64,000 bases of DNA from contig NZ_FWFK01000001.1 of NCBI RefSeq assembly GCF_900172265.1, positions 372,001 through 436,000 of the forward strand, given 5' to 3'. Positions 11,427 to 28,266 of the stretch are shown here, in pieces; the stretch's first letter is position 1, and every line of letters starts with the position of its first letter. The notes below the pieces were generated by a model. It was given only the letters and a program-made list of their open reading frames with translations, ran no database searches and was not told the origin of the DNA. This DNA comes from Roseivivax jejudonensis. GTDB taxonomy: Bacteria > Pseudomonadota > Alphaproteobacteria > Rhodobacterales > Rhodobacteraceae. A program made the translations under genes and the position numbers.

Positions 11427-11968
11427 TGCCAACGTACCTTAGAGAACTGTGACCCAATACCCCTAGCCTTCCGCTGCGATGTGCATGGACAGCGGCAAAG
11501 CGAGCTTCCCGCCGTCAGTCGCAGGTGCGAAATTTACGCTGCAACTGCGATGCTACGCGGCCGTAGGCGGGCTCCGAAGCTTTGCCGCGAAGGCAAGAAA
11601 TTTACGGCCAATCTGCTGAAGCGGACTGCATCGGCCTCTTGGTATGCAGCTAATCCACGCGGCTGCGCATGGTTGCTCCGTGCCCGATAAGCAAACACCA
11701 AACTCTTGCAGTGCGCGCTCGCAGCATCGACTTTGGACAACCATGATACCACAAGAGGATAGGAACGGATCACGGAAACCAGGCAGCTTTCGGACTGTCT
11801 GGCCGATGTTCGGCAGGGGCGTTGCGCGACAGGTCTTAGCTGCTCGCCTCGCGGTTCGTCCGCGCTGCACAGTAAAACCCACCCGGTCATAGTTTGAAGC
11901 GATTGAAACTTTGTACGGACGTCGTTCGTGCGTTAAAAAATACTTCGACGAAACAAGTTAGCAGGGAT
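11427..11968. other. Gene-free junction after the phage-like module
   Basis: About 540 bases with no frame that has a ribosome site or recognisable motif. Base composition falls towards its right end, where the promoter of the DUF4198 gene is expected. Probably the decayed border of the accessory segment. Confidence 0.5.
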
Positions 11969-12751
11969 ATGAATATGCCGATTAAGCTATCTCAAATGGC
12001 CTTGACCGCAATCTTTGCGGCAGCCGCAACGGCGGCATCGTCACATTATGGAATGGTCATTCCTTCGGACAACATGGTGGACCAAGAGGATGGCCGATCG
12101 GTTTCGCTAACCTTGTCGTTCTCGCATCCGTTCGAAGGCGATGGCATGGTGCTCGACGAACCGGTGTCTTTTGGTGTCACTCACGAAGGCGAAACCACAG
12201 ACCTTCTCGGCCTTCTCCAAGAGGCCGAGGTTATGGGTCAGCCCGGCTTCGTGCTCGACTATCCGTTGGAGGCGCCCGGGACACACGCCTTCGCAATGGA
12301 GCCCCAGCCATACTGGGAGCCAGGCGAGGACAGCTTTATTATCCACTACACCAAGACCTATGTCAGCGCATACGGCGAGGACGGCGGCTGGGATGCAGAA
12401 CTGGGCCTCCGGACCGAGATTGTACCTGTGTCGAAACCCTTCGCGCTTTGGACCGGGAATGCGTTCCAGGGCGTGGTGATGCTGGACGGAGAGCCGGTGC
12501 CTCACTCAGATGTCGAAATTGAGTACTACAACGAAGATGGCGCGGCCGTGGCGCCGTCGGAGCTTATGATTACACAGACCGTCAAGGCCGACGAAAACGG
12601 TGTCTTCACCTATGTCGCTCCGCGCGGCGGCTGGTGGGGCTTTGCCGCGCTCAACACAGCACCGGAGACGATGGAGCACGAGGGCGAGGACAAAGCCGTG
12701 GAGCTCGGCGCTGTGGTGTGGGTGCATTTTGAAGACTGGATGCAGCGATGA
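11969..12751 (+). CDS. Exported DUF4198-family protein (probable metal-uptake accessory)
   Basis: About 260 residues from ATG 11969; the ATG at 11975 is equally good because AGGGA lies a better distance upstream of it. Residues 1-24 are a signal peptide (MALTAIFAAAATAAS), after which the mature protein begins SHYGMVIPSD. DUF4198 proteins are periplasmic and are tied to nickel or cobalt uptake in many bacteria. The body shows beta-rich repeats and a proline and tryptophan-rich centre (EPQPYWEPGEDSFIIHYTKT). The next gene overlaps its stop by four bases. No ECF nickel permease is in the window, so a transporter partner would have to be elsewhere. Confidence 0.75.
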   Translation: MNMPIKLSQMALTAIFAAAATAASSHYGMVIPSDNMVDQEDGRSVSLTLSFSHPFEGDGMVLDEPVSFGVTHEGETTDLLGLLQEAEVMGQPGFVLDYPLEAPGTHAFAMEPQPYWEPGEDSFIIHYTKTYVSAYGEDGGWDAELGLRTEIVPVSKPFALWTGNAFQGVVMLDGEPVPHSDVEIEYYNEDGAAVAPSELMITQTVKADENGVFTYVAPRGGWWGFAALNTAPETMEHEGEDKAVELGAVVWVHFEDWMQR

Positions 12752-13127: not shown

Positions 13128-13961
13128 ATGTCAATTCGCCGCGGATCGCAAATTGCTGGCGCCGCCTTGCTCGCTCTTGTCGTTCCGACGCAGGCGCCCG
13201 CTCATGAGACTTGGCTCGACGTACATGATTGGCAACCCGCGAAAAGCGACCGGATCGAGGCAGACATCCGCAATGGCCACGGGTTCGACGGACGAATTCT
13301 GCCTTGGCTGGATCAGCTTATCGACAGCATGGAGCTTATGGACGGTCTAGGGCGCCTCGCCATCGAGGGCGAGAATGGGAACATGCCCGCTGTGGCGGTC
13401 CGCGCGCGTACAGACGGTTTGTCGATCCTCGTCTACGAGTCGCGGTACCGCACGCTTACCTACGACAGTTTCGAGGTTTTTCGGGAATTTCTCGCGGACA
13501 AGGACGAAAACTGGGTGCTTTCAGAACACACTTTGCGCGACCTGCCCACCAGCGCGGTCCGAGAGGCTTATCGCCGGTTCTCAAAGGCCCTCGTCGCCGT
13601 CGGTGGGAGGCGGGGTGCGGACCGGTTCACGGGGATGGAGCTCGAACTCATCGCCGAGGCGAACCCCTACACCGACCACGGTGCGCCTTTCGTAGTCCAG
13701 TTGCTCTACAATGGTGCGCCGAAGGCCGGAGAGCGCGTGACTCTTTTCAGCCGGGATGCAGGTGGCGTCGTCGACATCCGTTTGGCGAAAACCGGGGCCG
13801 ACGGGCGAGTGGCGTTCGCTTTGCGCCCGGGCCGGGATTATCTGGTCGATGCCGTGCTGGTGCGAAAGCCCGCGCGCAATATCGCCGCCGAGCACCTGGT
13901 CATGTGGGAGTCACTATGGGCGTCGCTCACCTTCGCCACGCCGGCGACTGACGGTCAGTAG
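13128..13961 (+). CDS. Exported DUF4198-family protein, second copy
   Basis: 277 residues. The signal peptide ends around residue 25 (PTQAPA) and the mature protein begins HETWLDVHDWQP, the usual DUF4198 opening (A-H-x-x-W-L). The central segment NPYTDHGAPFVVQLLYNG and the LVDAVLVRKP C-terminal strand also suit the family. It completes a three-gene unit of secreted proteins, 38 bases after the NikL-like gene and with AGAGAGAG as ribosome site. Its end overlaps the end of gspD by seven bases on the opposite strand. Role inferred: periplasmic metal binding or delivery. Confidence 0.75.
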   Translation: MSIRRGSQIAGAALLALVVPTQAPAHETWLDVHDWQPAKSDRIEADIRNGHGFDGRILPWLDQLIDSMELMDGLGRLAIEGENGNMPAVAVRARTDGLSILVYESRYRTLTYDSFEVFREFLADKDENWVLSEHTLRDLPTSAVREAYRRFSKALVAVGGRRGADRFTGMELELIAEANPYTDHGAPFVVQLLYNGAPKAGERVTLFSRDAGGVVDIRLAKTGADGRVAFALRPGRDYLVDAVLVRKPARNIAAEHLVMWESLWASLTFATPATDGQ

Positions 13962-15913
13962 AGACCGTTGATCTCGAGCGGGAGCTTTTTGACCTTGCGC
14001 TCCTTCAAAAGGCTACGGGGCGGTTCCGCTGCGTCCGCGCTGCGCAGTCGCTGATAGCGCCGGTCCGCGACGGCCCGCGCCTTGTGTTCGCTGTCGATAA
14101 CCGTCGGGCGCATAAAGACGAAGAGCGTCCGACGAGTTTGGTCGACGTTGCGCGAGCGGAAGATATTGCCGAGGACCGGGACGTCGCCGAGGCCCGGCAC
14201 TTTGGAGTTCGAGCTTTGCGCATCGTCGGTGATGAGGCCGCCGAGTACAATCGTGCCGCCGTCGCGCGACTGCACCGTCGTCTCGATCAGACGGCGATTG
14301 GTGATCAGGTCGGCCGCGCCCTGAACATTCGCGTTGACCAGCGATGACACTTCTTGGCTGATATCCAGCCGCACGACGCCGTTCGAGGTCACGCGGGGCA
14401 AGACTTCCATGGTGATGCCTACATCCTGACGCTCGATCGTGGTGAACGGGGTCAGTGTATTGCCGTCCGTGGCAAAACTTCCGGTCCGGAACGGCACGTT
14501 CTGGCCGACGATGATGGTGGCGGACTGGTTGTCCATCGTGGTGATCGAGGGGGTCGACAGCAGGTTGGCGCGGGTCGACTGACCGAGCGCCTGCACCAGC
14601 ACGCCGAACTCGTCGCTGCTGCCGGCGAGGGTCAGTCCCGGCGTGAGGCCGCTCGCGCCGGGCACACCGAGCGCCGAGAGCACCGCACTGAGCGACGCGC
14701 CGCCCTGTGAAAACGACGTCGAAGCGAAGCCGGTGTTCGGCAAGTTGTCGGCAAAACCGAGCTGCACGCCGAGACGTTCGCCGATTTCGCCCGAGACCTC
14801 GACGATGGCCGCCTCGATCATGACCTGCGCGCGTTCCTTGTCGAGCGAGCGCACGATGGCGATGACCTCCTCGATCTGGCGGGCCGTACCGCGGATCACC
14901 ACGGCGTTGGTCTGCGTCGAGGCCTGCACGGCAACGGCCGGCGCCGGTCCTTCCGGCAAGGCGACGCCGGGCTGGTCCTCGCCGTCGCCCACCGCCTGGG
15001 CGACCGGATTGGTCAGCTCGGTGGCGCCGCCCAGCGTGCCGTTCACGACCTCGGCCACCACCTCGGCGTCGGCGTATTGCAATTCGTAGACATAGGTGCG
15101 CAGCTGCGCCTGAGGAGCTGCGCGCGGAGCGACGTCCATATCGCGCACTAGGTCGCGCACCATGGCGATGTCCACCTCGGTACCGCGGACCAGAAGCGTG
15201 TTGGATGTCGGGTCGCTCGACAGCCGCGCGCCGGTTCCCGCGGACCCCAGCACATCGTTGATCGCCGTCAGCACTGCGTCGGCATCGGCATAATTGAAGC
15301 GCACGACCTCCGTGCGCAGGTTCTCCGGTCCGTCGAAGGTGCGCGCTATCTCGACGATACGCTCCACGTTTGCACGCGTGTCGGTGACGATGATGGCGTT
15401 GGGATCGCTCAGTGCCTCGATGTAGCCTGCCTCGGCCACCAACGGACGCAACACGCGAACTGCCTCTTCGGCGGGCAGCCGGTCGAGTTCGACGATGCGG
15501 GTTGTCGTGTCTTGACGGCCGGACAGCACGCCGCCTACCGGCATGCCCTTGGTCCTGGCGTCGGCCTCGGACACGATTTCCCACACGACACCGCTTTCGA
15601 CGGCGACGAAGCCGCGCACGCGCAGAATGGATTGAAACAGCTCCCATACGCCCGCTTGGCTGAGCGCTTCGGCCGAGATCACCGTGACCTCGCCGGCAAG
15701 TGCGGGATCCACCACCAGGGTGCGGGCGGTGATTTCCGACACCTGCTCGGCAAGGGCAGAGATATCGGCATTGCGAAGGTTGATGACGAAGTCGCCATCG
15801 TCCGACAGTCCTTGCGCCAATGCCCGGTCGGCCGTCCCGCAGACGAACGCGAGCAGCGACAGGCAGACGCAGAACAGGCGGCAGATCGGCATCGAACCTC
15901 GTCGAAACTTCAT
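13955..15913 (-). CDS. gspD: Type II secretion outer-membrane secretin GspD
   Basis: 652 residues. A signal peptide (about 1-34, ending ALAQG) precedes the N0 domain (FVINLRNADISALAEQVSEI), then N1-N3 repeats (VELDRLPAEEAVRVLRPLV; NAIIVTDTRANVERIVEIAR; NTLLVRGTEVDIAMVRDL) and the C-terminal secretin domain ending in the conserved PGLGDVPVLGNIFRS segment. It forms the multimeric outer-membrane channel. A VGQNVPFRTGSF stretch is the usual gate-region motif. Its ATG overlaps the gspC stop. The last 45 residues are short, and no pilotin gene is recognisable nearby, so how the secretin reaches the outer membrane is open. Confidence 0.95.
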   Translation of the reverse strand: MKFRRGSMPICRLFCVCLSLLAFVCGTADRALAQGLSDDGDFVINLRNADISALAEQVSEITARTLVVDPALAGEVTVISAEALSQAGVWELFQSILRVRGFVAVESGVVWEIVSEADARTKGMPVGGVLSGRQDTTTRIVELDRLPAEEAVRVLRPLVAEAGYIEALSDPNAIIVTDTRANVERIVEIARTFDGPENLRTEVVRFNYADADAVLTAINDVLGSAGTGARLSSDPTSNTLLVRGTEVDIAMVRDLVRDMDVAPRAAPQAQLRTYVYELQYADAEVVAEVVNGTLGGATELTNPVAQAVGDGEDQPGVALPEGPAPAVAVQASTQTNAVVIRGTARQIEEVIAIVRSLDKERAQVMIEAAIVEVSGEIGERLGVQLGFADNLPNTGFASTSFSQGGASLSAVLSALGVPGASGLTPGLTLAGSSDEFGVLVQALGQSTRANLLSTPSITTMDNQSATIIVGQNVPFRTGSFATDGNTLTPFTTIERQDVGITMEVLPRVTSNGVVRLDISQEVSSLVNANVQGAADLITNRRLIETTVQSRDGGTIVLGGLITDDAQSSNSKVPGLGDVPVLGNIFRSRNVDQTRRTLFVFMRPTVIDSEHKARAVADRRYQRLRSADAAEPPRSLLKERKVKKLPLEINGLY

Positions 15914-16803
15914 CTCAGTGGAAACGACATCAGCAGCGTTTCTCCGTCCCTGACCACTTCCAGACGGGCTTGGCCCGAGGCCGCAATCTCGTCGTAGAAC
16001 GCGCGGTCCCGGTCCGGATCGCCGACGTCCTGCCCATTCACCCGCGTCACCCGGTCGCCTGGCTTCAGCCCTGCCATCGTGACACCGATGTTGGGATCTT
16101 CAGCTATGGTATAGCCCTCGTCGCCCGGCACCAAACCAATCGTGTCGAGGACGGCTTGCGGATCGGCGATGATGCGTTCGCGCCACAAGTCGATGTAATC
16201 CTTCGTGGTCTCTGGCGGCGGCGCCTCGCGCAGATCGAGCGATCCGCGGCCGGGCACGATGGCGGCCCGCAGCCGGTCGAGCGGCGATTGCGGCGGCGCG
16301 GCGTCCGGTATCGGCGATGTCAACGTCGACCCGGAACCCGAGGCGCCATCGAGCGCACCGTCGAAGCCGAAGCGGCGCGAGTCCCCGTCGATATCGACCT
16401 CCACGAAATCAGCGGCGATCGCAGCCAGAATGGCATTTTCAGCCAGATCGTCACCGATCCGATAGCGGTCGACGCCGCCGCCGACGGCGATGAGCGCGCG
16501 CGACCGCGCGGGATCGGAGGCGACCAGCACGCCATGCAGCACCAGGTCGAGCGTGCGCGCAGTCGCCCCCGGACTTTTGGGTGCGGTGGGCGCGGCCTGA
16601 GCGCCGAACGGTGCGAAGGCAAGGATGTTCTCGGTGCCAACCGGCGGGGGGGCGCGGTCTTCGGTCAAGGGCGTGTCGAAGCGTTCAGGCACGACACTGG
16701 TGTGACCGGCCATATGCGCGGCCAGCCGCGCGCCCGGCGGCACGAGCGTCGCGCCCAGGGCGGCGACGGCGCAGATCGCGACGAGGCGGGGCAGATTGCT
16801 CAT
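15910..16803 (-). CDS. gspC: Type II secretion inner-membrane protein GspC
   Basis: 297 residues from the ATG at 16801-16803, which overlaps the gspI stop. One transmembrane helix (about 5-25) is followed by a proline-rich linker, the HR domain (TLDLVLHGVLVASDP...SRALIAVGGGVDRYRIGDDL), and a C-terminal PDZ-like region (NIGVTMAGLKPGDRVTRVNG). GspC links the inner-membrane platform to the N0 domain of GspD and may select cargo. The order I-C-D with 4-base overlaps indicates one transcript. Confidence 0.88.
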   Translation of the reverse strand: MSNLPRLVAICAVAALGATLVPPGARLAAHMAGHTSVVPERFDTPLTEDRAPPPVGTENILAFAPFGAQAAPTAPKSPGATARTLDLVLHGVLVASDPARSRALIAVGGGVDRYRIGDDLAENAILAAIAADFVEVDIDGDSRRFGFDGALDGASGSGSTLTSPIPDAAPPQSPLDRLRAAIVPGRGSLDLREAPPPETTKDYIDLWRERIIADPQAVLDTIGLVPGDEGYTIAEDPNIGVTMAGLKPGDRVTRVNGQDVGDPDRDRAFYDEIAASGQARLEVVRDGETLLMSFPLR

Positions 16804-17162
16804 GGCGCGGCTCCGTCCGGCATGTAGCCAATCAACGTGACCAGCGGGTCGCCCGGCGGGCCGGCGACCATGTGCACTTCCACGAGGCCGCTGCCGTCGA
16901 GCGCGCGGCGCTCTGTCTTGATGTCGATGTCCTGGCCTAGCGCGGTGCGCCATTCGGCGCGCATCTCGACACCGAGTTGCGTCGTCACTAGCGCGTTCTC
17001 GGCCACCCAGCGCGCAACGATCCGATCGGCAAGGCCGCGGGTCTCGGCGGCGTGGCGTTCGGCGGCGGTGAGCAGGGTCACCGCGCCGAAGCCCAGAACC
17101 GTCATGGCAACAAGCGCCTCGATGAGGGTGAACCCGGCGTCGGTCGCGCGGGCGGGCCTCAT
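16800..17162 (-). CDS. gspI: Minor pseudopilin GspI
   Basis: 120 residues. The prepilin peptidase site is RATDAG/FTLIEALVAM, with Glu at +5 and a 20-residue hydrophobic helix after it. A short leader of about 10 residues and total length are normal for GspI, one of the four tip pseudopilins (H, I, J, K). It overlaps gspH upstream and gspC downstream by four bases each. Confidence 0.85.
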   Translation of the reverse strand: MRPARATDAGFTLIEALVAMTVLGFGAVTLLTAAERHAAETRGLADRIVARWVAENALVTTQLGVEMRAEWRTALGQDIDIKTERRALDGSGLVEVHMVAGPPGDPLVTLIGYMPDGAAP

Positions 17163-17647
17163 TGGACCGGCCCCAGGTAGGCAGACAGCCCATCGAACGC
17201 CACATTCGCGCCGGCGCCGATGCGGAAGACCGCGATGCCGCTGGGGGGCGGCGCGGCGTCTGGCCCGATCGCAAGGCGCCCCTCGGTCGCGCCGGGGTCG
17301 CCCGCGAGGCTCAGCGCAAGCGAAACCGTCTGCCACTCTGCGAGGCGCGGGTTGCCGTGCGGTCGCCAGTCTTCCTCGCCCCGCTCCACGAAGCTGTAGC
17401 CGTCCCGCCGCCAGTCGAGCGCGGCGGCGCGGCCGGACAACAGGCTTTCCTCAGTGGCGATGCTCAGCCGCGCGGCCAGAAGCTCAGCGTCTTGCCGGGC
17501 AGTCCAGTCCGCGCGGTCGCCCGACCGCAGGCTCAGTGATACCAGACCCGCACCTGTCCCGATCAGCGCCAGCACTATCAGCACCTCGAGCAGGGTGACG
17601 CCCGCGTCACCGCCGCGTCCATGCCGCGATGGGCGCGCCCGCGGCAT
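17159..17647 (-). CDS. gspH: Minor pseudopilin GspH
   Basis: 162 residues from ATG 17645-17647, one base after the gspG stop. The leader ends GRGGDAG and the mature helix begins VTLLEVLIVLALIG with Glu at +5. The later GVAVFRIG-like strands (SGIAVFRIGAGANVAF) fit the GspH globular domain. Named H rather than another minor pseudopilin from gene order G-H-I and size. Confidence 0.8.
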   Translation of the reverse strand: MPRARPSRHGRGGDAGVTLLEVLIVLALIGTGAGLVSLSLRSGDRADWTARQDAELLAARLSIATEESLLSGRAAALDWRRDGYSFVERGEEDWRPHGNPRLAEWQTVSLALSLAGDPGATEGRLAIGPDAAPPPSGIAVFRIGAGANVAFDGLSAYLGPVQ

Positions 17648-17648
17648 G

Positions 17649-18161
17649 TCAGCTGCCCGCCTCTTGCCGTGCGCCGCGCCCGATATCGGCGTCGACGGCA
17701 TCACCGCCAGGGCGTCCGTCCGCGCCGAGGCTTATGAGGTCGAAGGCTCCGGACTGACCGGGCGAACGATAGACGTACGCGTTGCCCCATGGATCCTCGG
17801 GCATGGTGTCGAGATACCCGTCCGCCGGGAAGGCTTCGGGCACCGGCGGCGCGCTCGGGCGCTCGACCAGCGCGGCCAATCCCTGCGCGGTCGTGGGATA
17901 GACGCGATTGTCAAGGCGGTAGAGTTCCAGCGCACTTTCTATGCTGCGCAGATCGGTCTCGGCGACCGTGGCGCGCGCCTCGTCGGGGCGGCCGACGACG
18001 TTGGGCACGATCATGGCCGCTACGACGGCGATGATGACCAGAACCACCATCATCTCGATCAGCGTCACACCGGCTTCGGGGTGTCTGGCGCGCGCGGCAC
18101 TGCCGCGTCGCGCGCGGTTGGGGCGAGCCGCCGAGGCGCGCCGGATGCGGGCTGGTGTCAT
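17649..18161 (-). CDS. gspG: Major pseudopilin GspG
   Basis: 170 residues. The cleavage site is HPEAG/VTLIEMMVVLVIIAVVAA, with Glu at +5 and the MIVPNVVGR continuation typical of GspG; the C-terminal part carries DPWGNAYVYRSPGQ and LISLGADG, the calcium-binding GspG signature. The leader upstream of the cleavage site is unusually long and basic, 31 residues with ten arginines, where 5-10 is normal; no later start codon shortens it sensibly. It is the first gene of the G-H-I-C-D block, divergent from gspL across 145 bases that must hold both promoters. Confidence 0.92.
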   Translation of the reverse strand: MTPARIRRASAARPNRARRGSAARARHPEAGVTLIEMMVVLVIIAVVAAMIVPNVVGRPDEARATVAETDLRSIESALELYRLDNRVYPTTAQGLAALVERPSAPPVPEAFPADGYLDTMPEDPWGNAYVYRSPGQSGAFDLISLGADGRPGGDAVDADIGRGARQEAGS

Positions 18162-18306
18162 GAAACTCTCTTTCTCCTTGCAGCGTGCATCGGTTAGCAT
18201 ACCAAACACCCGCCACGAAGAGGTGGAGCCTGAATACACCGGAAACATCTTGCTGATAAGGGCAAATTTGGGAAGATTTTCGCCCCGCCGGCCAGACGCT
18301 GCGCCG

Positions 18307-19410
18307 ATGGACATCCTGGTCGCGCCGGGTCGCGAAGGTGCTCGCGTCGACGACATCGGCCCACTGGCCGCGCGTCTGCGACGCGCGTCCGGCCGGGATA
18401 TCCACGTTGTGCCAGCCGAGCATGTGACGCTCTTGAACGTGACGCTGCCGTTGCGGTCGAACCGCCAGCGCATCGCCGCCTTGCCTTTCGCGGTCGAGGA
18501 TCGTCTGGCCGCGCCGCTCGAAGATCTGCACGTGGCGCTGTGCGGCCATGGACCGGATGGCGGGATCGTCGCGGCGGCCCTCGCGCGGGATGTAATGGCG
18601 GACGCGGCGCGAGACCAGCCCGACTTAGCGATCCTGCCCGAACAGCTTGCCCTTCCGGTGCCGCCTCCCATCGGGGACGGCCCGCCGGCATGGTTGGTGT
18701 TCCGCCACGGCGCCCGCGTCGTCGTTCGTCTGGCCGACGGCACCGGATTTGCCGCTCGGGCAACCGCCTTGCCCGAGCTTTGGCTGCGCGCCGGGCGTCC
18801 GGTCGTCAAATCCTTGGGCGAAGCCTTACCGGACGGAATCGACTGGACACAGGGTAAGGATGTCCCGCCTAGCCAGGCCGATCTGTCCGTCGACATGCGT
18901 CAGGGCGCGTTTCGCCCGCCGAGCGGCTGGGTCCGCCCGCTGCGCGCCGTCGCCGCCGCTCTGCCTGTGGTCGCCCTTCTTCATCTCGCGCTGGCCTGGG
19001 CCGATCTGCAAGTGCTGCGCGGCCTGGCTCTCGACGCGCGGGTCGAAACCGAGGCGGCGCTGGCCGAAAAAGTTCCCTCGGCGACCGTGTTCGACGATCC
19101 AGGCATGCTTTGGTCGCGTCTGTCGGCCCGCGATGACGACGGACCCGGAGACGGCGGCCCGGTGCCGCTGCTGGACCGTGCCTCAGGCACGCTTATGAGC
19201 GCGGAACTCGCCGTAACCGTGGACCGTCTGGTCTGGTCGACAGCGCCCGATACCCTGGCGCTGTCGATCACCGCGCCGACGCTGGACGTTCTGCAACAGA
19301 CCGAAGAGGCGCTGCGCCTCGCAGGGCTGGCGGTAACCGCCGGTACCGCCACCGCCGGCGAGGCCGGCGCGCAGTCGGAACTGACGATCCGCGACGGCGA
19401 CGGCGGATGA
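18307..19410 (+). CDS. gspL: Type II secretion platform protein GspL
   Basis: 367 residues from the ATG at 18307. The cytoplasmic half has the actin-like GspL character (VVPAEHVTLLNVTLPLRS, then PFAVEDRLAAPLEDLHVA). A transmembrane helix near residues 208-228 (AVAAALPVVALLHLALAW) leads to a short periplasmic ferredoxin-like domain. GspL ties the ATPase GspE to the membrane and pairs with GspM. The open frame extends upstream past the intergenic region, but the start used here is the first giving a normal N-terminus. Its stop overlaps the gspM start. Confidence 0.85.
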   Translation: MDILVAPGREGARVDDIGPLAARLRRASGRDIHVVPAEHVTLLNVTLPLRSNRQRIAALPFAVEDRLAAPLEDLHVALCGHGPDGGIVAAALARDVMADAARDQPDLAILPEQLALPVPPPIGDGPPAWLVFRHGARVVVRLADGTGFAARATALPELWLRAGRPVVKSLGEALPDGIDWTQGKDVPPSQADLSVDMRQGAFRPPSGWVRPLRAVAAALPVVALLHLALAWADLQVLRGLALDARVETEAALAEKVPSATVFDDPGMLWSRLSARDDDGPGDGGPVPLLDRASGTLMSAELAVTVDRLVWSTAPDTLALSITAPTLDVLQQTEEALRLAGLAVTAGTATAGEAGAQSELTIRDGDGG

Positions 19411-19868
19411 GCGCGCTCGCCAGTCTTAGCCCGCGAGAGCGGATGCTGCTGCTGGTCGGCGCCGTGCTGATTTTGGCCCTGGTGCTGTGGCGCTTTGCCT
19501 GGCAGCCGATCCAGGCCGAACGCGCCGCGCTGAACGATGACATCGCCCGCTATCTCGCGCTCCGGCGCGTGGCCGAGCTGGCGGACGTCGCGCCGGGTGG
19601 AACAGCGCAAGGGGCGGCAGAGCCGGCTGCGCCGCTGTCCCAGCGCGCGACGCGCAGTGCCGAGTCGGCTGGCGTGCGGATCACTCGCATCGACCCGCAG
19701 GGCGCGCGCTTGACGTTGGTTGTGCAGGACGCGGCGTTCCGCGATATCCTGGCTTGGACCGTGGCGCTGGAACGAGAGGAATACGCGAGGGTCACCGCAC
19801 TCGAGGTCGACCGTCAGACCGCCCCAGGCACGGTCAGCGCTCGGCTCACACTAGAGGACGCGCGATGA
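19407..19868 (+). CDS. gspM: Type II secretion platform protein GspM
   Basis: 153 residues, ATG overlapping the gspL stop. A short cytoplasmic lead (SPRERMLLLVGAVL) and one transmembrane helix (about 13-32) are followed by a coiled-coil-like segment and a small alpha/beta domain, the standard GspM plan. It stabilises GspL in the inner membrane. Overlaps gspE downstream by four bases. Confidence 0.85.
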   Translation: MSALASLSPRERMLLLVGAVLILALVLWRFAWQPIQAERAALNDDIARYLALRRVAELADVAPGGTAQGAAEPAAPLSQRATRSAESAGVRITRIDPQGARLTLVVQDAAFRDILAWTVALEREEYARVTALEVDRQTAPGTVSARLTLEDAR

Positions 19869-21409
19869 CGGATAACGCCGAAACCGACGGCACGGAAACC
19901 GATCGGATCGGGGATCGGCCGATCGTGTCCTACGCCTTTGCCAAAGCGCATGGCGTGATCGTTGAGCCGGACGCGGATGGCGCGCCGGTCTGCCGGCACC
20001 TCGGAACCGCCGACCTGCCCGCGCTCATGGAGGCGCAGCGCGCGGCCGGGGAGCTCGCCGCCTTTGAGGAAGTCGGCGGGGAGACCTTCGAGGATGCGCT
20101 CGGGCGCGTCTTCCGCAATGACGCCACCGAGGCGGCACGGATGGCCGCGAAGGACGACGACGATCTTTCGGCGCTGGCCGAGACCGCCGCGTCGGTCGAC
20201 GATCTCTTGGACCAAAACGACGACGCACCGGTGGTACGGCTGATCAACGCGCTGCTGCTCCAGGCAGTCAAGGAAGGCGCCTCTGATATGCATGTGGAGG
20301 TCGAGGAGCGCCGCTTGGTTGTTCGATTCCGCGTTGATGGCCTCCTGCGCGATGTGATCGAGCCCAAGCGCGCGCTCGCGCCTCTTTTGGCGAGCCGCCT
20401 CAAGGTCATGGGTAAGCTCGACATCGCCGAAAAGCGGCTGCCTCAGGATGGACGCGTCTCGGTGCGGGTGGGCGGCTACGAACTCGACGTGCGGATCTCC
20501 ACCTTGCCGTCGCAATTCGGCGAACGGGTGGTGCTGCGCCTGCTCGACCGCGGCCAGACCCAGCGCGGCATCGCACATCTGGGCATGTCCGAGCGCGACC
20601 GCGCCGCCTTCGAGCATGTCATCGCCGCGCCCGAGGGGCTGGTGCTGGTCACCGGTCCGACCGGGTCCGGCAAGACCACGTCGCTCTACGCTGCGCTCGG
20701 CCATCTTAACGACCGCAAGCGCAACATCCTGACCGTCGAAGATCCCATCGAGTATTCGATGGACGGCATCGGGCAAATGCAGGTGAACCCAAAGACCGAA
20801 CTGACCTTCGCCCGTGGCCTGCGCGCGCTCCTGCGGCAGGACCCCGACGTCATAATGGTGGGCGAGATTCGCGATGCAGAGACCGCCAAGATCGCGGTCG
20901 AGAGCGCGATGACGGGGCACTTGGTGCTATCGACGCTGCACACCAATACAGCCATCGGCGCGGTGTCGCGGTTAATCGACATGGGGGTGGAGCGGTTCCT
21001 GCTGGCGCCGATGGTCCGCGGGCTTGTCGCACAGCGCCTCGTGCGACAGCTCTGCGCCGAATGCCGCGCGCCGCATCAGCTGAGCGCGGCCGAGGCGAAA
21101 CTGCTGTCGGGCGCGCTGCTCGAAGGCGCCGAGGTCTGGCGTGCGGACGGCTGCGAGACCTGCGGCCAGTCAGGCTATCGCGGGCGCCTACCGATTTACG
21201 AGATCGTCGTCGCCGACCGCGAGATCGAGGCCATGATCCATGCCGGCGCGTCCGAGGCGGACCTCACGGCAGCCGCGCGCGCCAAGGCGCCGGGCATCCT
21301 GCAGGACGGGGCGCGGAAGATGCGCGAAGGTTTGACCACCGCCGAAGAGGTCGTCCGCGCGGTGCGCGAGGACAGCGCGCCGGACCCGGCCGCACGGGCA
21401 GCGGAATAG
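19865..21409 (+). CDS. gspE: Type II secretion ATPase GspE
   Basis: 514 residues from ATG 19865. Walker A GPTGSGKT is at 264-271, the Asp box VEDPIE at 291-296, Walker B DPDVIMVGE at 326-334 and the His box near 350-360 (GHLVLSTLHTN). The four-cysteine zinc site is Cys397/Cys400 (CAEC) and Cys430/Cys433 (CETC). The N-terminal 120 residues form the domain that binds GspL. It is a hexameric motor on the cytoplasmic face driving pseudopilus assembly. It follows gspM with an overlap and is followed by gspF after four bases. Confidence 0.97.
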   Translation: MTDNAETDGTETDRIGDRPIVSYAFAKAHGVIVEPDADGAPVCRHLGTADLPALMEAQRAAGELAAFEEVGGETFEDALGRVFRNDATEAARMAAKDDDDLSALAETAASVDDLLDQNDDAPVVRLINALLLQAVKEGASDMHVEVEERRLVVRFRVDGLLRDVIEPKRALAPLLASRLKVMGKLDIAEKRLPQDGRVSVRVGGYELDVRISTLPSQFGERVVLRLLDRGQTQRGIAHLGMSERDRAAFEHVIAAPEGLVLVTGPTGSGKTTSLYAALGHLNDRKRNILTVEDPIEYSMDGIGQMQVNPKTELTFARGLRALLRQDPDVIMVGEIRDAETAKIAVESAMTGHLVLSTLHTNTAIGAVSRLIDMGVERFLLAPMVRGLVAQRLVRQLCAECRAPHQLSAAEAKLLSGALLEGAEVWRADGCETCGQSGYRGRLPIYEIVVADREIEAMIHAGASEADLTAAARAKAPGILQDGARKMREGLTTAEEVVRAVREDSAPDPAARAAE

Positions 21410-21413
21410 CCCG

Positions 21414-22634
21414 TTGGGCGCGTTTCTCTACAAGGCCGTCGATGCCGGCGGGCGCCACGCCCGCGGGTTGATCGAGGCCTCGAGCGAAAGCGCCGCGCGC
21501 GCCGAATTGCGCCAGCGCAAGCTGTTGCCGCTGTCGGTCGAACCCACGCGGCGGCGCCCGGGGCAGGCGTTTTCGCGCGACAGGGCACCGCGATCCTCTC
21601 GGCTCGGTCCGAAGCGGCTGGCGCTTCTCACACGGCAGCTCGCGACGTTGGTGGGTGCCAATGTGCGTATCGAGGACGCGCTACGGGTCGTCGCGGGTCA
21701 GACGCGGAGCGCGCGCGAGGGGTCGTTGCTTCTGAACCTGCGCGGCGCGGTGCTCGACGGGCGTAGCTTTGCCGCGGCACTCGATGACAATCCCGCGAGC
21801 TTCGACGAATATTACCGCGCCTCGGTGCGCGCGGGCGAGACCTCGGGGCGGCTGAGCCAGGTGATGGACCACCTCGCTCTACACATTGAGGAGCAGGCGA
21901 AGAACCGTCAGAGCCTGCAACTGGCGCTAATATATCCGGCGCTCCTGACTATCGTTTCCGTCGTCGTGATCTCCGCGCTTTTGGCCTTCGTAGTGCCGGA
22001 TATCGTACGCGTCTTCACCTCGCGCGGGGCCGACCTGCCGGGGCTGACCCGCGCGCTGATCGCCGCATCGGATTGGCTAACGACATGGGGGCCGGTCGCA
22101 GCGGCGGTGTGCGCGGGTGGTGTTGCCACGGGTCTTGCCGCGCTGCGCCGGCCACGCATCCGCGCGCGCTGGCACTGGCTGCTGGCTACCACGTGGCCGA
22201 TGCGCGGCCCTGTGCTCAAGATCGCCTCGGCGCGTTTTTCGGGCACCCTGGCCACGCTGGTGCAAAGCGGGGTGCCGCTGGCCGATGCGCTCCGGGCGGC
22301 GACCGATACGGTCCCGAATCTCTACCTGCGCACCCGGCTCGCTGCGCTCGCGCAGCGGGTGTCGGACGGGGCGGCGCTGTCCCGCGCGGCGGAAGAGTCG
22401 GGGATATTCCCGCCGATGCTGGTGGCGATGATCGCTAGCGGCGAGGCCGGCGGTACGCTTGGCCATAGCCTCGAGCGCAGCGCGGCGGAACAATCGGCCG
22501 ACCTTAAGGCAAAGGTCGCGACCATCGTCGCGTTGGTGGAACCGGGCGTGCTGCTTGTCATGGGGGGGATCGTCATGCTGCTTGTCCTAGCGATCCTGAT
22601 GCCCATCGTCAGCCTGAACGATCTAACCGGATGA
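21414..22634 (+). CDS. gspF: Type II secretion inner-membrane platform protein GspF
   Basis: 406 residues from a TTG at 21414-21416 that gives the standard opening MGAFLYKAVDAGGR. Two T2SSF domains are visible (about 70-190 and 275-395), with hallmark phrases LALLTRQLATLVGA, YPALLTIVSVVVISALL and the C-terminal VALVEPGVLLVMGGIVMLLVLAILMPI. GspF forms the membrane platform with GspL and GspM. The ribosome site is weak; with only four bases after gspE, translation is probably coupled. Confidence 0.93.
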   Translation: MGAFLYKAVDAGGRHARGLIEASSESAARAELRQRKLLPLSVEPTRRRPGQAFSRDRAPRSSRLGPKRLALLTRQLATLVGANVRIEDALRVVAGQTRSAREGSLLLNLRGAVLDGRSFAAALDDNPASFDEYYRASVRAGETSGRLSQVMDHLALHIEEQAKNRQSLQLALIYPALLTIVSVVVISALLAFVVPDIVRVFTSRGADLPGLTRALIAASDWLTTWGPVAAAVCAGGVATGLAALRRPRIRARWHWLLATTWPMRGPVLKIASARFSGTLATLVQSGVPLADALRAATDTVPNLYLRTRLAALAQRVSDGAALSRAAEESGIFPPMLVAMIASGEAGGTLGHSLERSAAEQSADLKAKVATIVALVEPGVLLVMGGIVMLLVLAILMPIVSLNDLTG

Positions 22635-22639
22635 TCGGT

Positions 22640-23380
22640 TCAGAAGGCGTATTCGAGAGTCAGTGGTCCATTCTTGGGCAGCGCCGGATAGATCTCCGCC
22701 GCCTCTTTGAGAATCGAGAGTGTGGCGCGGCCCGCGCCGTCGATCCGGAAATTTGCGAGAGGCCGGTTGCCGCCGGCGTCGAGAAGCGCGGCGGCCGTAT
22801 CGTCTTCGGTCGAGAAGATCAGATTTTGCTCAGGCAGCGCGATCTCTCGCGCCCCTTTAGCGCATGTGCCGGCGGGCAGCGTCACCCTCCCGTCGGCCCG
22901 GGCCGCGCCGCCGGCCTTGAGCAGCGTCACGTCGTCGACCCGAGCCGTAATGCCGCAGCGCCACGCACCGGGGACCAGCCGCGCCAACCCCGGCCCCGCG
23001 CGCCCGGATACCGCCGTGATACCGATCTCGCGCGGAAAAAACCGCAGATCACCTTCGAGCCGCGTATCGCCGCCCTCGAGCCGCAGCGTTCCGCCAAACC
23101 CGGGCCAGGGGCGGAGGCCCGGCCGTGTCAACCAGGTCAACGTGTATCCTTGGGCGAGGTCCGCGCCACCGTTTCGCAATGTGCCGTATACGGCATGCAC
23201 CTGTGGCGGAAGGTCGAGCGTGCGTGTTAATATCGTCAACGGAGCGAGATAGAGGAGCGCGCCGCCAAGCGTGCCGAGACCTACACATGCGAGACCCAAG
23301 AAAAACGCGATCCGCGACAGCCATGACGCGCCGCGCGACACCATCGCGGCGGGCGATCCTGAAGGGGCTGGCTGCGTCAT
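22640..23380 (-). CDS. gspN: Type II secretion protein GspN
   Basis: 246 residues. A transmembrane helix (about 22-48) is followed by a periplasmic beta-rich domain with GTLRNGGADLAQG, a VHAVYGT strand and the LEYAF end that suit GspN. GspN is an optional inner-membrane component. It is on the opposite strand to its neighbours, ending five bases from the gspF stop. Its 5' end overlaps the 5' end of the plus-strand lipoprotein gene: 58 bases from this ATG, or 22 from the in-frame ATG at 23344. Two functional genes sharing start regions head to head is unusual. Confidence 0.8.
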   Translation of the reverse strand: MTQPAPSGSPAAMVSRGASWLSRIAFFLGLACVGLGTLGGALLYLAPLTILTRTLDLPPQVHAVYGTLRNGGADLAQGYTLTWLTRPGLRPWPGFGGTLRLEGGDTRLEGDLRFFPREIGITAVSGRAGPGLARLVPGAWRCGITARVDDVTLLKAGGAARADGRVTLPAGTCAKGAREIALPEQNLIFSTEDDTAAALLDAGGNRPLANFRIDGAGRATLSILKEAAEIYPALPKNGPLTLEYAF

Positions 23381-24399
23381 CGGTGTCGGTCCTCGGGGGC
23401 TGCAGCGTCGGCGAGGCGATTGGCGGTGGCGTCACGTCCGGCGGACCGGGTCAGGCGGCGCTGCTGCTCCCGCTGTCCGGCGCGTCCCAGCAACTAGGCC
23501 AGATGCTCCAGACCGCCGCAAGCCTCGGCGGCGGTCCGGGCATCGGCATCGACATCTTCGACACGGGCTCGAGCCCCGAGGACGCGGCGGCGGCAGCGAG
23601 GAACGCCGTCGATGCCGGCGCCAACATGCTGATCGGGCCGGTCTTCGGGGCACAGGCTCGCGCGGTCGCCGCCGCCGTGCCTGACCAAGTGCCGGTCGTG
23701 ACGCTGTCGAACGACGCCTCGCTGGCAGGCAACGGCCTCTATGTCTTCGGCATCACCCCGGCCCATTCGGCGCAGGCGGTGCTGAGCCTCGCCGCGCAGC
23801 GTAACTTGCGCGATGTCGCGGTGATCGTGCCGCCCGGAGCTTTCGGCGCGCAATCGGTCTCGGCGGTGCAGGCGCTCGCTCCGCAACTCGGGATGCAGCT
23901 GCGCGCGCCCATCGTGCGCGGCGACGCCGCAGGAATCGGCGCGGCGCTCGCCAATGGCGGGGGCACGCCCGACGCGGTCTATCTGCCCGCCGCCGATGGT
24001 AATCTAGCGCCGATTGCCCGCGCGCTCTCGGGCCTCGACATCCAGCTTCTGGGATCGGCGCAATGGTCGGCGCTAGATCTCGAAAGCGACCCAGCATTCA
24101 ACGGCGCCTGGTTCGCGGCGCCCGACCCATTGCGCTTCGCGCCGTTCCGCGACGCCTTCGCGGAGGCGACGGGATCGAATGCGGGGATCATCGCGGGGCT
24201 GACATACGACGGCACCGAACTCGCCCGGACGCTCGGCCGCCAAGGCCGCCAGTCGCGCCGCGGATTGCAGGCCGAGGACGGATTTTCCGGGGTGCTGGGG
24301 CCGTACCGGTTTCTGCGCTCAGGACTCTGTCAACGCGGCCTTGCGGTGCTGCGCGTCGGGTCGGGCGATTTCGCCCTGATCGGTGCCACTTCCGTATGA
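23323..24399 (+). CDS. Lipoprotein with a type-1 periplasmic-binding fold (LpoA/penicillin-binding-protein-activator type) inside the T2SS locus
   Basis: 358 residues from ATG 23323. The N-terminus has twin arginines and a lipobox (SRRAILKGLAASSVSVLGGC; Cys about 27), so it should be an envelope lipoprotein. The body is a Peripla_BP_6-like fold: AALLLPLSGASQQLGQMLQT, then GANMLIGPVFGAQARAVA and VPVVTLSNDAS, the pattern of LpoA-type activators of peptidoglycan synthases and of amino-acid-binding proteins. It lies between gspN/gspF and gspJ and overlaps gspJ by four bases, so it is co-translated with the pseudopilins. It may help open peptidoglycan for the secretin or act as a pilotin. Those roles are inference; the family has no fixed T2SS role that I know of. 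Confidence 0.8.
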   Translation: MTRRATPSRRAILKGLAASSVSVLGGCSVGEAIGGGVTSGGPGQAALLLPLSGASQQLGQMLQTAASLGGGPGIGIDIFDTGSSPEDAAAAARNAVDAGANMLIGPVFGAQARAVAAAVPDQVPVVTLSNDASLAGNGLYVFGITPAHSAQAVLSLAAQRNLRDVAVIVPPGAFGAQSVSAVQALAPQLGMQLRAPIVRGDAAGIGAALANGGGTPDAVYLPAADGNLAPIARALSGLDIQLLGSAQWSALDLESDPAFNGAWFAAPDPLRFAPFRDAFAEATGSNAGIIAGLTYDGTELARTLGRQGRQSRRGLQAEDGFSGVLGPYRFLRSGLCQRGLAVLRVGSGDFALIGATSV

Positions 24400-24953
24400 C
24401 GCCGCCGCGGGCACGGCCTGGGGACGCCGGCCTGACGCTTGTCGAGGTGCTGGTGGCACTGGCGCTCTTCGCGCTCGTCAGTGTAGCGGGGCTGACCATG
24501 CTCGACACCGTGCTGCGAGTGAACGACGGCACCGGTACACGGCTCGAGCGGCTGGCCGAGATCGACCGCGCGTTTCTGGTCCTGCGCCGTGACCTCGCGC
24601 AGATGGCGCCGGGACCGGTCACGCTCGACGCGCAGGGTCTGGCTTTCCCGCGCGCCTTTGGCGCGGGGCCAGCTGAAATGCGTGTGCGGCACACAGACGG
24701 CACGCTGGTGCGTGAAGTGCCGGCGGCGGCTGGGGCGCAGTCGTCGCAGCGGTTGCTGGCGGGGGTCGCAGGCGCGAGGTGGCGGTTGCTCGGGCCGGCG
24801 CAAGTCTGGCACGAAAGCTGGCCGGTGGACGCCGTTCCCGAAGGCGCTCCGCCGCGGGCAGCCGAGGTGACGCTCGATCTGGAGCGGGGCGAATCGGGGA
24901 CCGGCGGAACGCTGACGCGTCTCTTCGCGCTGCCGGAAACGGCGCGCCGATGA
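24396..24953 (+). CDS. gspJ: Minor pseudopilin GspJ
   Basis: 185 residues, ATG overlapping the stop of the lipoprotein gene. The cleavage site is RPGDAG/LTLVEVLVALALFALVSV with Glu at +5. Residues IDRAFLVLRRDLAQM and QRLLAGVAGARWR fit the GspJ globular domain, and size is usual. GspJ forms the pseudopilus tip with I and K. Overlaps gspK by four bases. Confidence 0.85.
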   Translation: MTPPRARPGDAGLTLVEVLVALALFALVSVAGLTMLDTVLRVNDGTGTRLERLAEIDRAFLVLRRDLAQMAPGPVTLDAQGLAFPRAFGAGPAEMRVRHTDGTLVREVPAAAGAQSSQRLLAGVAGARWRLLGPAQVWHESWPVDAVPEGAPPRAAEVTLDLERGESGTGGTLTRLFALPETARR

Positions 24954-25804
24954 CACGCGACCGCGAGGCCGGTATCGTCCTTGTCAACGTGCTGGTGATC
25001 CTAGCGTTGACCGCCAGCATCGTTGCGCTAATGTTCGGCAGCCGCGACACGGCGCGCGAGCGGGTCTCAGCCATGTCCGATGGCGCGCTCGCCGAAGCGC
25101 TGGCGCTGGGGGCCGAGGCCTCAGTGATCGCAGCGTTGCGCCGCGACCTCATTACCGCGCCCGAGGCGGATCACTTCGGCGAACCCTGGGCGCGGATCGC
25201 GCAGGAGGAGACCCGGCTCGCCACCGGGCGCTTCTCGGTCGTCATCCGCGATCAACAGCGCAAATACGACATCAACTGGCTGGCCGGCGGCCGACTTGGG
25301 CCGGTCACCACTCTGGCGCGGCTCTTGGAAGAGCTTGACCAGCCCCCTGAACTCGCCGCGCAAATCGCAGCGATCCTCACGCGCGTCGGGCGGGTTCCGG
25401 CGCTGGAGAACCTGACAGCGTTCGGGATACCTGCAACCGCGCTCGAGGAGATTGCACCTTACGTAACGGCTTTGCCGGTAGAGGGGGAAGTCAACCTGAA
25501 CACCGCCGAGGCGCCGCTCATGCGGGCGATGTTCGGCAACCGCGCGATCGCCGCGCGCCTAATCGCGGTCAGAGCGCGCGAAGGCCACATCACCCGCGAA
25601 ACGCTGACCGGCGCCGGCGCGGTCCGCCCGGATCACTCGGGCTTCACCTCAAATCTTTACGCGGTCGAGGTGTTCGCCGAGGCCGGCGTCGCTGCGGTGC
25701 GGCTCGAAAGTACGATCCTGCGCGTCGCCGAGCTCTCAGGGCAGTCCGTCGGGGTTTTGTCGCGACGGTTCATGGATGTCTATCCGGCTGCCGCCCCGGA
25801 ATGA
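24950..25804 (+). CDS. gspK: Minor pseudopilin GspK
   Basis: 284 residues. A very short leader (MTRDREAG) is followed by IVLVNVLVILALTASIVALM; lack of a Glu at +5 is normal for GspK, which caps the tip. Later phrases RKYDINWLAGG, VEGEVNLNTAEAPLMRAMFG and a helix-hairpin-like region fit the two-domain GspK structure with its alpha-helical insertion. It closes the J-K block, and a hairpin follows its stop. Confidence 0.9.
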   Translation: MTRDREAGIVLVNVLVILALTASIVALMFGSRDTARERVSAMSDGALAEALALGAEASVIAALRRDLITAPEADHFGEPWARIAQEETRLATGRFSVVIRDQQRKYDINWLAGGRLGPVTTLARLLEELDQPPELAAQIAAILTRVGRVPALENLTAFGIPATALEEIAPYVTALPVEGEVNLNTAEAPLMRAMFGNRAIAARLIAVRAREGHITRETLTGAGAVRPDHSGFTSNLYAVEVFAEAGVAAVRLESTILRVAELSGQSVGVLSRRFMDVYPAAAPE

Positions 25805-26112: not shown

Positions 26113-27672
26113 TCAGCCGCCGGCACCGGGAAGCGGCGCGCGCAAATACGGGAACTGCCCACCTACGTCGAGAGCACTGACCGGAGCGCCGTCGATGAAC
26201 GGCTGGTCGCCGACCGGCGCGTCGCCCGGGGCACAGAGCCCGAGATTGACCAGATCGCTCTCGGTGTCTTCCTCGGCGCCTTCGACGCCAAGCTCGGCGC
26301 CGAGCGGCACCGGGTGGCACAGTGCCCCCATAACCACGCGCAGCGCGATGTCGACGACATCGTCGCCGGGACGGCGGCCGTTCGGGAAGCCGGCGAGATC
26401 TTCACCCACAACACCGAAATTGCTTTGCTGCTGGCGCGGCGTCGGCGGCACGGCGGTGTTGAGCCGCATCATCTCGGACGGCGTGACGGTGGCCTGCTGG
26501 TTCAATCCCGGAAACCCGGTCAGGAACGCGGTCACGAGATCCTGACGCGGCAGGTTCGACGGCGCGATGTTGCCTGGGGCACCAAGCGCGTCGCGGAATA
26601 GGATGTCGATGAGCGCCGGCAAGGTCGGGTTGGTCACGTAGGTGGCCAGCGCACTATCCTGAGTTGGCTCGGCTGCGTTAAAGAGGTCCTTGTCGGGCAG
26701 TCCGATGACCACCTCGTTCACGAGCGGAGCGGACAGGCGCGACTGTTGCACCCAGGCCCCGCCATGGACGGACGTGCCTTCGTACGTCGGCGAGGGATCC
26801 TCGATCTCGGCTTGCGGAAGGCTCGACGTCGTCCAGCCGCCGATGACGCCGTTTCCGTCGCCGATGACACACGAGATCGGCAGCTCGAGCGCCAGCGAGG
26901 TGACGTTGAAACGGTCGATCAGATCGTCGTTCTCGCGACTGTTCTCGATAGCCCCCTCAAGCGGCACGAGGTTCACGAGATCGAAGATTTCGCCTAGGTT
27001 CACAGCGAAGGCTTCGGCCCGCTGACCGGCAAAGACCCGCCCCTGCATCTCGCAGCCGGGTATGTCGACCTTGTAGATGTACTGGTCGGCATAGGCCTCG
27101 TAGTCGGGGATTGTCTTGGTGCCGATGTTGTCGAGCGGCTTGACGAAAGTGCGCCGACCGTCGAGGCCGACGATGGGCTCCGCGTCGCCGCTGCGGCGGT
27201 CGCCCCGGATGACATCAAGGCTATACGTCTCGATCTCGTTCAGCGGGTCACCGTCGTCGCCGGTAATCGAACCAGCCGTTTTCAGCGGGATCGCGACGGT
27301 TTCGTCGCCGATAGTAAGAGCGATGCCATTGCCATCGGCGCCAAGGGCGTTGTCGAAATCGAATTGGAAAGTCAGATCCTCGATCGCGTCGCCATCGTTG
27401 TCGATGTGGATCTCGTAGATAGCATCCGAATCCATGGTGAAGTAATTCGGACCACCGTAGGGAGCCTGTAGCGGCTGGTAGTTAGCGATAATAGTCACGA
27501 AGTCCTCACGTGCCGCCTGATAGCTGCGGAACATGTAGAAGTCTGTCGCATCGACCTTGGGGCTCTCCGTGATGCCGGGAGCTTCGCGGTGCGACGAGGC
27601 CTGCGCCCCGCACGCCGCTGCGACCAAAGTGGCGACCAACGCGCCTTGGCCGAGTTTCAGATTTGTTCTCAT
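26113..27672 (-). CDS. Exported DUF4331-family protein, candidate T2SS substrate
   Basis: 519 residues with a signal peptide (about 1-25, ending GAQA). The mature start SSHREAPGITESPKVDATDF, followed by YMFRSY, is the DUF4331 hallmark (SSHREAP...D.TDFY.F). Further family-like stretches are DNDGDAIEDLTFQFDFDN and the NRENDDL-like ENSRENDDLIDRFNVTSLAL region. Function of the family is unknown; many members are secreted. Placement between gspK and gspO makes it a likely cargo or surface factor of this secretion system. It has two mature-region cysteine clusters (GCEMQG, SCVIGDG). Confidence 0.85.
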   Translation of the reverse strand: MRTNLKLGQGALVATLVAAACGAQASSHREAPGITESPKVDATDFYMFRSYQAAREDFVTIIANYQPLQAPYGGPNYFTMDSDAIYEIHIDNDGDAIEDLTFQFDFDNALGADGNGIALTIGDETVAIPLKTAGSITGDDGDPLNEIETYSLDVIRGDRRSGDAEPIVGLDGRRTFVKPLDNIGTKTIPDYEAYADQYIYKVDIPGCEMQGRVFAGQRAEAFAVNLGEIFDLVNLVPLEGAIENSRENDDLIDRFNVTSLALELPISCVIGDGNGVIGGWTTSSLPQAEIEDPSPTYEGTSVHGGAWVQQSRLSAPLVNEVVIGLPDKDLFNAAEPTQDSALATYVTNPTLPALIDILFRDALGAPGNIAPSNLPRQDLVTAFLTGFPGLNQQATVTPSEMMRLNTAVPPTPRQQQSNFGVVGEDLAGFPNGRRPGDDVVDIALRVVMGALCHPVPLGAELGVEGAEEDTESDLVNLGLCAPGDAPVGDQPFIDGAPVSALDVGGQFPYLRAPLPGAGG

Positions 27673-27819
27673 TCCGTTCGACTCCCCGTAGTATTTTTGC
27701 GTGATACAACAGCACTCATACTTTACCTGTCATGCGCAACTGTACGTGCGACGTACCATGCACGGAGCTCTTGGTGGGAAAGTTTCACAGGCACGAAGAA
27801 ACATTCTGATGGTCGATGT

Positions 27820-28266
27820 ATGAGTGTCGAAGTTTTCGCGACCGTCCCGCTGCTGGTGATCTTGGCAGCACTCGCCCTGACGGATGTCCTCACGCATAGG
27901 CTTCCGGATGCCGGGACGATACCGATCGGCGTTTTCGGTCTCATTGTGGCGATTGCGTCACCGGCAGGTGATCTTTTCGAATCGCTGCTGGCGGCAGCGG
28001 CTGGGTACGGTCTGTTCTGGGGTGTGGGCGCGGCGTTCTATCGGCTGCGAGGATACGAGGGGCTCGGTCTTGGCGACGCGAAGCTTTTCGGCGCGGCGGG
28101 CGCCTGGGTCGGGCTGGCGGGATTGGCGTGGGTGTTGCTCGTGGCAACGCTAATGGCGCTGATATATGTACAAGCGATGGGCGCAAGGCGCGACACACGA
28201 GTGGCGTTCGGTCCTTGGTTGTGTATCGGCTTTTGCGCAGTCTGGGTCGGCAAACTGATAGGATGA
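27820..28266 (+). CDS. gspO: Short prepilin peptidase GspO (A24 family, peptidase domain only)
   Basis: 148 residues from ATG 27820. The two catalytic aspartates are Asp22 (LTDVLTHRLPD) and Asp86 in the GLGLGDAKLF motif (GxGD type). Four to five membrane helices follow. Classical GspO/PilD is about 280 residues with an N-terminal zinc and methyltransferase domain; that domain is missing, so this copy would cleave but not methylate prepilins, as in TadV/CpaA-type peptidases. It is divergent from the DUF4331 gene and closes the T2SS locus. Confidence 0.87.
   Translation: MSVEVFATVPLLVILAALALTDVLTHRLPDAGTIPIGVFGLIVAIASPAGDLFESLLAAAAGYGLFWGVGAAFYRLRGYEGLGLGDAKLFGAAGAWVGLAGLAWVLLVATLMALIYVQAMGARRDTRVAFGPWLCIGFCAVWVGKLIG

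Follow-up and report, generated by a model that had tools for sequence, protein, structure and literature searches.

A binding-protein-fold lipoprotein gene tied to one subtype of alphaproteobacterial type II secretion systems

The type II secretion system (T2SS) locus of Roseivivax jejudonensis encodes a lipoprotein with the fold of type-I periplasmic binding proteins that, judging from its sequence and distribution, very probably serves one T2SS subtype, here denoted class A, as an accessory component not described before; that the gene product belongs to the class-A machine in some capacity, we consider highly likely. Comparisons across alphaproteobacterial genomes, from marine and soil bacteria, show that the gene is strictly associated with this subtype, arose once, and is consistently placed with gspN, gspJ and gspK. 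In the literature searched (subscription papers lay outside it), we found no paper on the class-A subtype or on such a component, and no report of a T2SS component with this fold, in agreement with the original prediction.

In T2SS biology, an explanation is still sought for how secretins arrive at and traverse the outer membrane in systems with no known pilotin or GspAB. With a T2SS subtype now defined by a putative accessory protein and a secretin tail motif of its own, this question becomes testable in harmless marine bacteria.

The lipoprotein gene and its locus

The window, that is, the whole 64,000-nucleotide stretch of R. jejudonensis DNA that was analyzed, contains a complete gsp set, with D, C, I, H and G on the minus strand and L, M, E, F, J and K on the plus strand, along with a prepilin peptidase gene (Table 1); the full complement of core genes that had been read from the DNA was thereby recovered, peptidase included. 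The lipoprotein gene, which starts with ATG and encodes 358 amino acids, is located between gspF/gspN and gspJ-gspK. Its stop codon shares the tetranucleotide ATGA with the gspJ start (24396-24399), and gspJ and gspK overlap in the same manner, as expected under the translational coupling proposed originally. The gspN gene is antisense to the lipoprotein gene and covers its first 58 bp; the GspN protein of the window yielded no Pfam match and was assigned through an orthologue from another locus. Both in the window and in its relatives, the genes adjoining the lipoprotein gene are gsp genes, and no ABC permease or ATPase genes were found next to it.

Table 1. Coordinates of the T2SS genes and of the sequence features discussed in the text (positions in the window)
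Feature	Coordinates	Strand	Basis
gspD, secretin	13955..15913	-	TIGR02517, 463.8 bits
class-A GspD C-terminal motif codons, LPLEINGLY-COOH	13958..13984	-	secretin C-terminus comparison
gspC, with C-terminal PDZ-like segment (class-A type)	15910..16803	-	
gspI (approximate start)	16800..17165	-	
gspH (approximate start)	17159..17668	-	
gspG (approximate start)	17649..18140	-	
gspL (frame open from 17941; start position approximate)	18241..19410	+	
gspM	19407..19868	+	
gspE	19865..21409	+	
gspF (TTG start)	21414..22634	+	
gspN	22640..23380	-	orthologue L105 matches PF01203
T2SS-linked, LpoA/YraM-related Tat lipoprotein gene, type-I periplasmic-binding-protein fold	23323..24399	+	sequence, Pfam, model
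twin-arginine codons, residues 9-10 of the signal peptide	23347..23352	+	31/31 class-A copies
lipobox LGGC, acylated Cys27 (predicted)	23392..23403	+	Cys in 22/22 Rhodobacteraceae copies
gspJ	24396..24953	+	ATGA overlap with lipoprotein stop
gspK	24950..25804	+	ATGA overlap with gspJ stop
gspO, prepilin peptidase (start within the ORF uncertain)	27589..28266	+	PF01478

A Pfam search detected zero matches to the PulS/OutS (PF09691) and AspS (PF16549) pilotin families in the lipoprotein or elsewhere in the genome, so that the earlier impression of a locus with no recognisable pilotin holds. The missing pilotin is not an anomaly in itself because pilotin-independent T2SSs are known (PMC6532946).

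Association with a single T2SS subtype

The first survey drew on 54 T2SS loci of the family and another 50 of the class, which were selected through GspD rather than through the lipoprotein gene; the surveyed loci were annotated with iterated profiles. Class A is recognized by its gene order: DCIHG in one orientation, LMEF in the opposite one, gspN in the orientation of DCIHG, and then the lipoprotein gene, gspJ and gspK in that of LMEF. This architecture was observed in the window and in nine further loci of the survey. The lipoprotein gene is present in all 10 of these class-A loci, compared to 0 of the 95 other alphaproteobacterial T2SS loci (several of which are truncated). In three genomes that contain a class-A system along with another T2SS (G001, G251 and G329), the gene is found only at the class-A locus.

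An independent second scan, in which class-A GspC served as the bait and which had some genomes in common with the first survey, identified 22 class-A loci in named Rhodobacteraceae, including Oceanicola, Thalassococcus, Roseobacter, Sulfitobacter, Palleronia, Limimaricola, Loktanella, Profundibacterium, Tateyamaria, Fertoeibacter and Cypionkella, among others. The lipoprotein gene is visible in 19 of these; of the other three loci, L155 and L166 are truncated and L161 is split, and their genomes carry the gene on different contigs. In the split locus of Oceaniglobus trochenteri, gspN, the lipoprotein gene, gspJ and gspK have been relocated as one block. Complete class-A loci with the lipoprotein gene are also carried by plasmids of Marinovum algicola, Jannaschia, Paracoccus liaowanqingii and Sulfitobacter pontiacus. 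The original prediction named absence of the gene from most orthologous T2SS loci as the outcome that would count against it; the opposite was found, namely, presence in essentially every locus of the subtype and in no other subtype, and the assignment of an LpoA/PBP1-fold lipoprotein to this T2SS accordingly stands.

Class-A loci with an orthologue of the lipoprotein gene also occur in a second family, which is probably Sphingomonadaceae, given that its housekeeping paralogues (see below) cluster with the ones from named Sphingomonas and Sphingopyxis. The sphingomonad genome G859 yielded only fragments of the gene, on other contigs. In some sphingomonad loci (L255), gspJ-gspK have shifted to the other operon and the lipoprotein gene is still next to gspN. 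Conversely, gspN is missing from at least two separate class-A branches that retain the lipoprotein gene (L051, L052, L148, L149, L162, L164 and L165).

Domain architecture, fold and origin of the lipoprotein

The lipoprotein, with the N-terminus MTRRATPSRRAILKGLAASSVSVLGGC, consists of a signal peptide followed by a single binding-protein domain (residues ~43-358), as delineated by Pfam and by the AlphaFold model (pLDDT 89, pTM 0.83). Pfam recognizes it as Peripla_BP_6 (51.8 bits, cut-off 31.7) and, slightly above the cut-off of 28.8, as LppC/LpoA (31.4 bits); for the sphingomonad orthologue, the LppC score of 18.2 bits is under that cut-off, and an NCBIfam search assigned no family to the lipoprotein. 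Among solved structures, the best sequence matches are LpoA/YraM (3ckm and 5kcn, Haemophilus; E ~1e-5). Structural comparison of the model places type-I solute-binding proteins on top (best Z 30.9), with the LpoA C-domain at Z ~26 (2.9 A over 300 residues), and does not discriminate between LpoA and solute-binding proteins, given that 1000 of 1000 chains have Z >= 8. The likeness to LpoA, a PBP1A activator of the LppC family, lies in the C-domain fold, which is common to all type-I binding proteins, and in remote sequence similarity. The N-terminal TPR domain characteristic of LpoA is not present according to Pfam and the predicted structure. Judged by these features, the lipoprotein falls outside LpoA (no TPR domain, wrong genomic position) as well as outside the known pilotin families.

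Homologues of the lipoprotein are encoded in 193 of the 198 genomes of the family, mostly as one copy of a housekeeping type. The window genome contains such a housekeeping paralogue ~72 kb away from the lipoprotein gene (L007). The housekeeping copy is located beside rsmI in all 32 examined loci and beside yraN in 27 of these, a position that is not occupied by any of five T2SS-linked copies. This order, yraL-yraM-yraN, is the one around E. coli yraM/lpoA, and the paralogue, rather than the T2SS-linked lipoprotein, is the positional counterpart of yraM. As a side observation, such a YraM/LpoA-like lipoprotein beside rsmI/yraN in alphaproteobacteria contrasts with the published statement that no LpoA homologue is known in this class (PMC10470522).

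A maximum likelihood tree built from 80 sequences unites the T2SS-linked copies in a single clade apart from all housekeeping copies (UFBoot 100); this clade divides into a Rhodobacteraceae branch (bootstrap 98) and a sphingomonad branch (bootstrap 100). Given this monophyly and the two family clades, the recruitment of the gene to the T2SS looks like a single, ancient event, and the lipoprotein itself probably derives from a YraM/LpoA-like protein.

The distribution and the tree bear directly on the possibility that the protein has no T2SS function, being either a common solute-binding protein of an ABC transporter or a passenger of the LpoA paralogue. Such a reading would agree with the current database records, which name the protein "ABC substrate-binding protein" or "penicillin-binding protein activator", and Tat export is frequent among alphaproteobacterial binding proteins. 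However, the locus lacks transporter genes, and an exclusive, universal and monophyletic link to one T2SS subtype contradicts this explanation, which we regard as highly improbable. Proteins under either of these annotations can, then, belong to a secretion machine.

Among the residues that are conserved in class A and differ from the paralogue are SND (SNN in the paralogue) and GSxQW (GLTRW). Together with the cleft of the type-I binding-protein fold and with the coupling to gspJ-gspK, including joint relocation in the split locus, this conservation could be accommodated by a periplasmic receptor that captures folded cargo or a small ligand and passes it on to GspJ-GspK at the tip of the pseudopilus, or that acts as a gate of the machine. 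This is quite unlikely in our estimation: the sphingomonad loci in which the gene stayed with gspN while gspJ-gspK moved to the other operon argue against it, and the alignment shows no conservation of the acidic residue with which leucine-binding proteins hold the amino group of the ligand.

Export signal and lipid anchor

A twin-arginine motif (SRRAILK in the window) is present in 31 of the 31 T2SS-linked copies, and most housekeeping copies differ in this respect; in two plasmid copies, the annotated starts conceal the twin arginines, which are found upstream in frame. The conservation of the lipid anchor is narrower. A lipobox-type cysteine is present in 22 of 22 Rhodobacteraceae copies and is gone in 8 of the 9 sphingomonad copies (L105, L248-L251 and L253-L255, all of which keep their place in the locus and a Tat signal), the ninth being ambiguous. 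Therefore, the conserved core function is unlikely to depend on the lipid anchor, and because non-lipidated orthologues exist, we set aside the reading of the protein as a classical pilotin; the same eight copies speak against lipid-based piloting as the ancestral or general role. Of the original suggestion that the protein guides GspD as a lipoprotein, the part that concerns the lipid is weakened, and the part that concerns GspD gains from the tracking of the gene by a GspD motif described below.

Tat export would also suit a folded substrate, and the lipoprotein might be a cargo of the T2SS, displayed on the surface in Rhodobacteraceae and secreted in sphingomonads. The product of the adjacent gene, GspN, is an accessory T2SS subunit of some systems, on which lipoprotein transport by the T2SS depends in Acinetobacter (PMC12802150), and lipoprotein genes beside T2SS loci are known, for example, ElpS in Caulobacter (PMC2996285). 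Nevertheless, neither GGG nor ND(N/D), the sequences reported for GspN-dependent cargo, follows the acylated cysteine in any copy, a weak criterion given that the rule comes from Acinetobacter; the two branches without gspN retain both the lipoprotein gene and the cysteine; the gene lies within the operon, at one copy per system; and the product of the DUF4331 gene beyond gspK makes a stronger candidate for cargo. We consider a cargo role very unlikely. GspN itself differs from the lipoprotein in being an inner-membrane, AsmA-like protein and in its absence from the two branches.

Another alternative develops the suggestion in the original prediction that the protein could open the wall for the GspD ring: the lipoprotein would engage PBP1A at its OB/docking domain and thereby link local cell wall synthesis to the insertion of the GspD ring or the pseudopilus, a job that falls to GspA/GspB in other systems. 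The closeness to LpoA in sequence and in the superposed C-domain, the position of the parent paralogue beside rsmI and yraN, as for E. coli lpoA, and the PCB_OB domain of the PBP1A encoded in the genome (73.8 bits) are all compatible with this mechanism. On the other side, the fold is shared by every type-I binding protein, and LpoA acts from the outer membrane, but the sphingomonad copies are not lipidated. Furthermore, published work knows of no LpoA homologue in alphaproteobacteria (PMC10470522), and the paralogue is itself a putative activator. Docking on PBP1A appears unlikely but retains a measure of support. Apart from the missing TPR domain, the lipoprotein differs from LpoA/YraM in its Tat signal, its location in a T2SS operon and its non-universal lipidation.

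The C-terminal tail of class-A GspD and the proposed role of the lipoprotein

All 35 non-redundant class-A secretins terminate with the motif Lx[LV]E[IL]xG[LIV]Y-COOH, in which E, G and the terminal Y are invariant (35/35) and before which the residues are variable. The 42 motif-bearing loci all belong to genomes with the lipoprotein gene (only fragments in G859): 37 of these secretins are encoded in loci that contain the gene, and the other five in truncated, split or rearranged loci, with the gene elsewhere in the genome. Conversely, the motif is absent from 131 of 131 secretins in loci without the gene. Because class-A systems are one lineage, this association amounts to one evolutionary event rather than to independent covariation.

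The solved T2SS secretins align with class-A GspD only up to ~20 residues before its end, and the tail that follows the S-domain helix is predicted to be disordered, in a monomer model of modest quality (pLDDT 68.5, pTM 0.41). The unbound S-domain of PulD is described as disordered, pilotins bind such secretin tails, and in E. coli, the type of secretin tail correlates perfectly with the type of pilotin (PMC3542185). The parallel with the class-A tail is suggestive. In Rhodobacteraceae, the lipoprotein resembles PulS/OutS and AspS/GspS-beta in being tied to a secretin class with a diagnostic C-terminal extension; unlike these pilotins, which have folds of ~110 residues, it adopts a binding-protein fold of ~330 residues, carries a Tat signal, and has no lipid anchor in sphingomonads. 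The Ala-Phe alpha-12 signature seen in pilotin-dependent secretins (PMC6532946) is also missing from the class-A tail, and the TadD pilotin is unlike the lipoprotein in both fold and size. A further analogy, and only that, is with GspA/GspB (ExeA/ExeB), which have been proposed to help secretins assemble through the peptidoglycan where a T2SS has no pilotin (PMC6532946); GspA, an ATPase-type protein of the inner membrane, contains a peptidoglycan-binding domain and has no homology to the lipoprotein.

Given these observations, we tentatively propose, with a confidence that approaches but falls short of an even chance, that the lipoprotein is a dedicated T2SS component which binds the GspD tail as a chaperone or assembly factor and, in Rhodobacteraceae, contributes outer-membrane delivery by means of its lipid. 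Under this scheme, the protein would be exported by Tat to the periplasm, where it would be lipid-anchored in Rhodobacteraceae; it would bind the subtype-specific tail of GspD and aid the folding or insertion of the secretin. The lipid anchor in Rhodobacteraceae might, in addition, bring GspD to the outer membrane in a pilotin-like fashion, and the sphingomonad orthologue would act as a soluble chaperone. In its most specific form, that is, a new secretin-assembly partner that was recruited from the LpoA/YraM family as a Tat-exported receptor with a binding-protein fold for the invariant C-terminal peptide of GspD, and operates as a pilotin or as a soluble chaperone depending on the family, the proposal is possible but doubtful.

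Other features of class-A loci

Rhodobacteraceae (L043-L096) possess at least three T2SS architectures, namely, class A, a GHIJKLM-CDEF arrangement, and types without a recognisable gspL; at times, two architectures coexist in the same genome. The 32.5 kb plasmid unnamed5 of Jannaschia sp. W003 (L299) is small but holds a whole class-A T2SS in rearranged order, including the lipoprotein gene, a DUF4331 gene and a prepilin peptidase gene. On the gspD side of the window locus, there are two genes for DUF4198-domain proteins (11894-12751 and 13128-13961, plus strand), and DUF4198 genes adjoin gspD in two plasmid loci as well (L300, L301). The DUF4331 gene lies directly past gspK in the window (26113-27672, minus strand) and is retained in 21 of the 23 Rhodobacteraceae class-A loci that reach at least 400 bp past gspK, with 57-84% identity. 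It is found beside gspK on plasmids too and in none of seven sphingomonad loci; its product is a candidate cognate cargo of the class-A T2SS.
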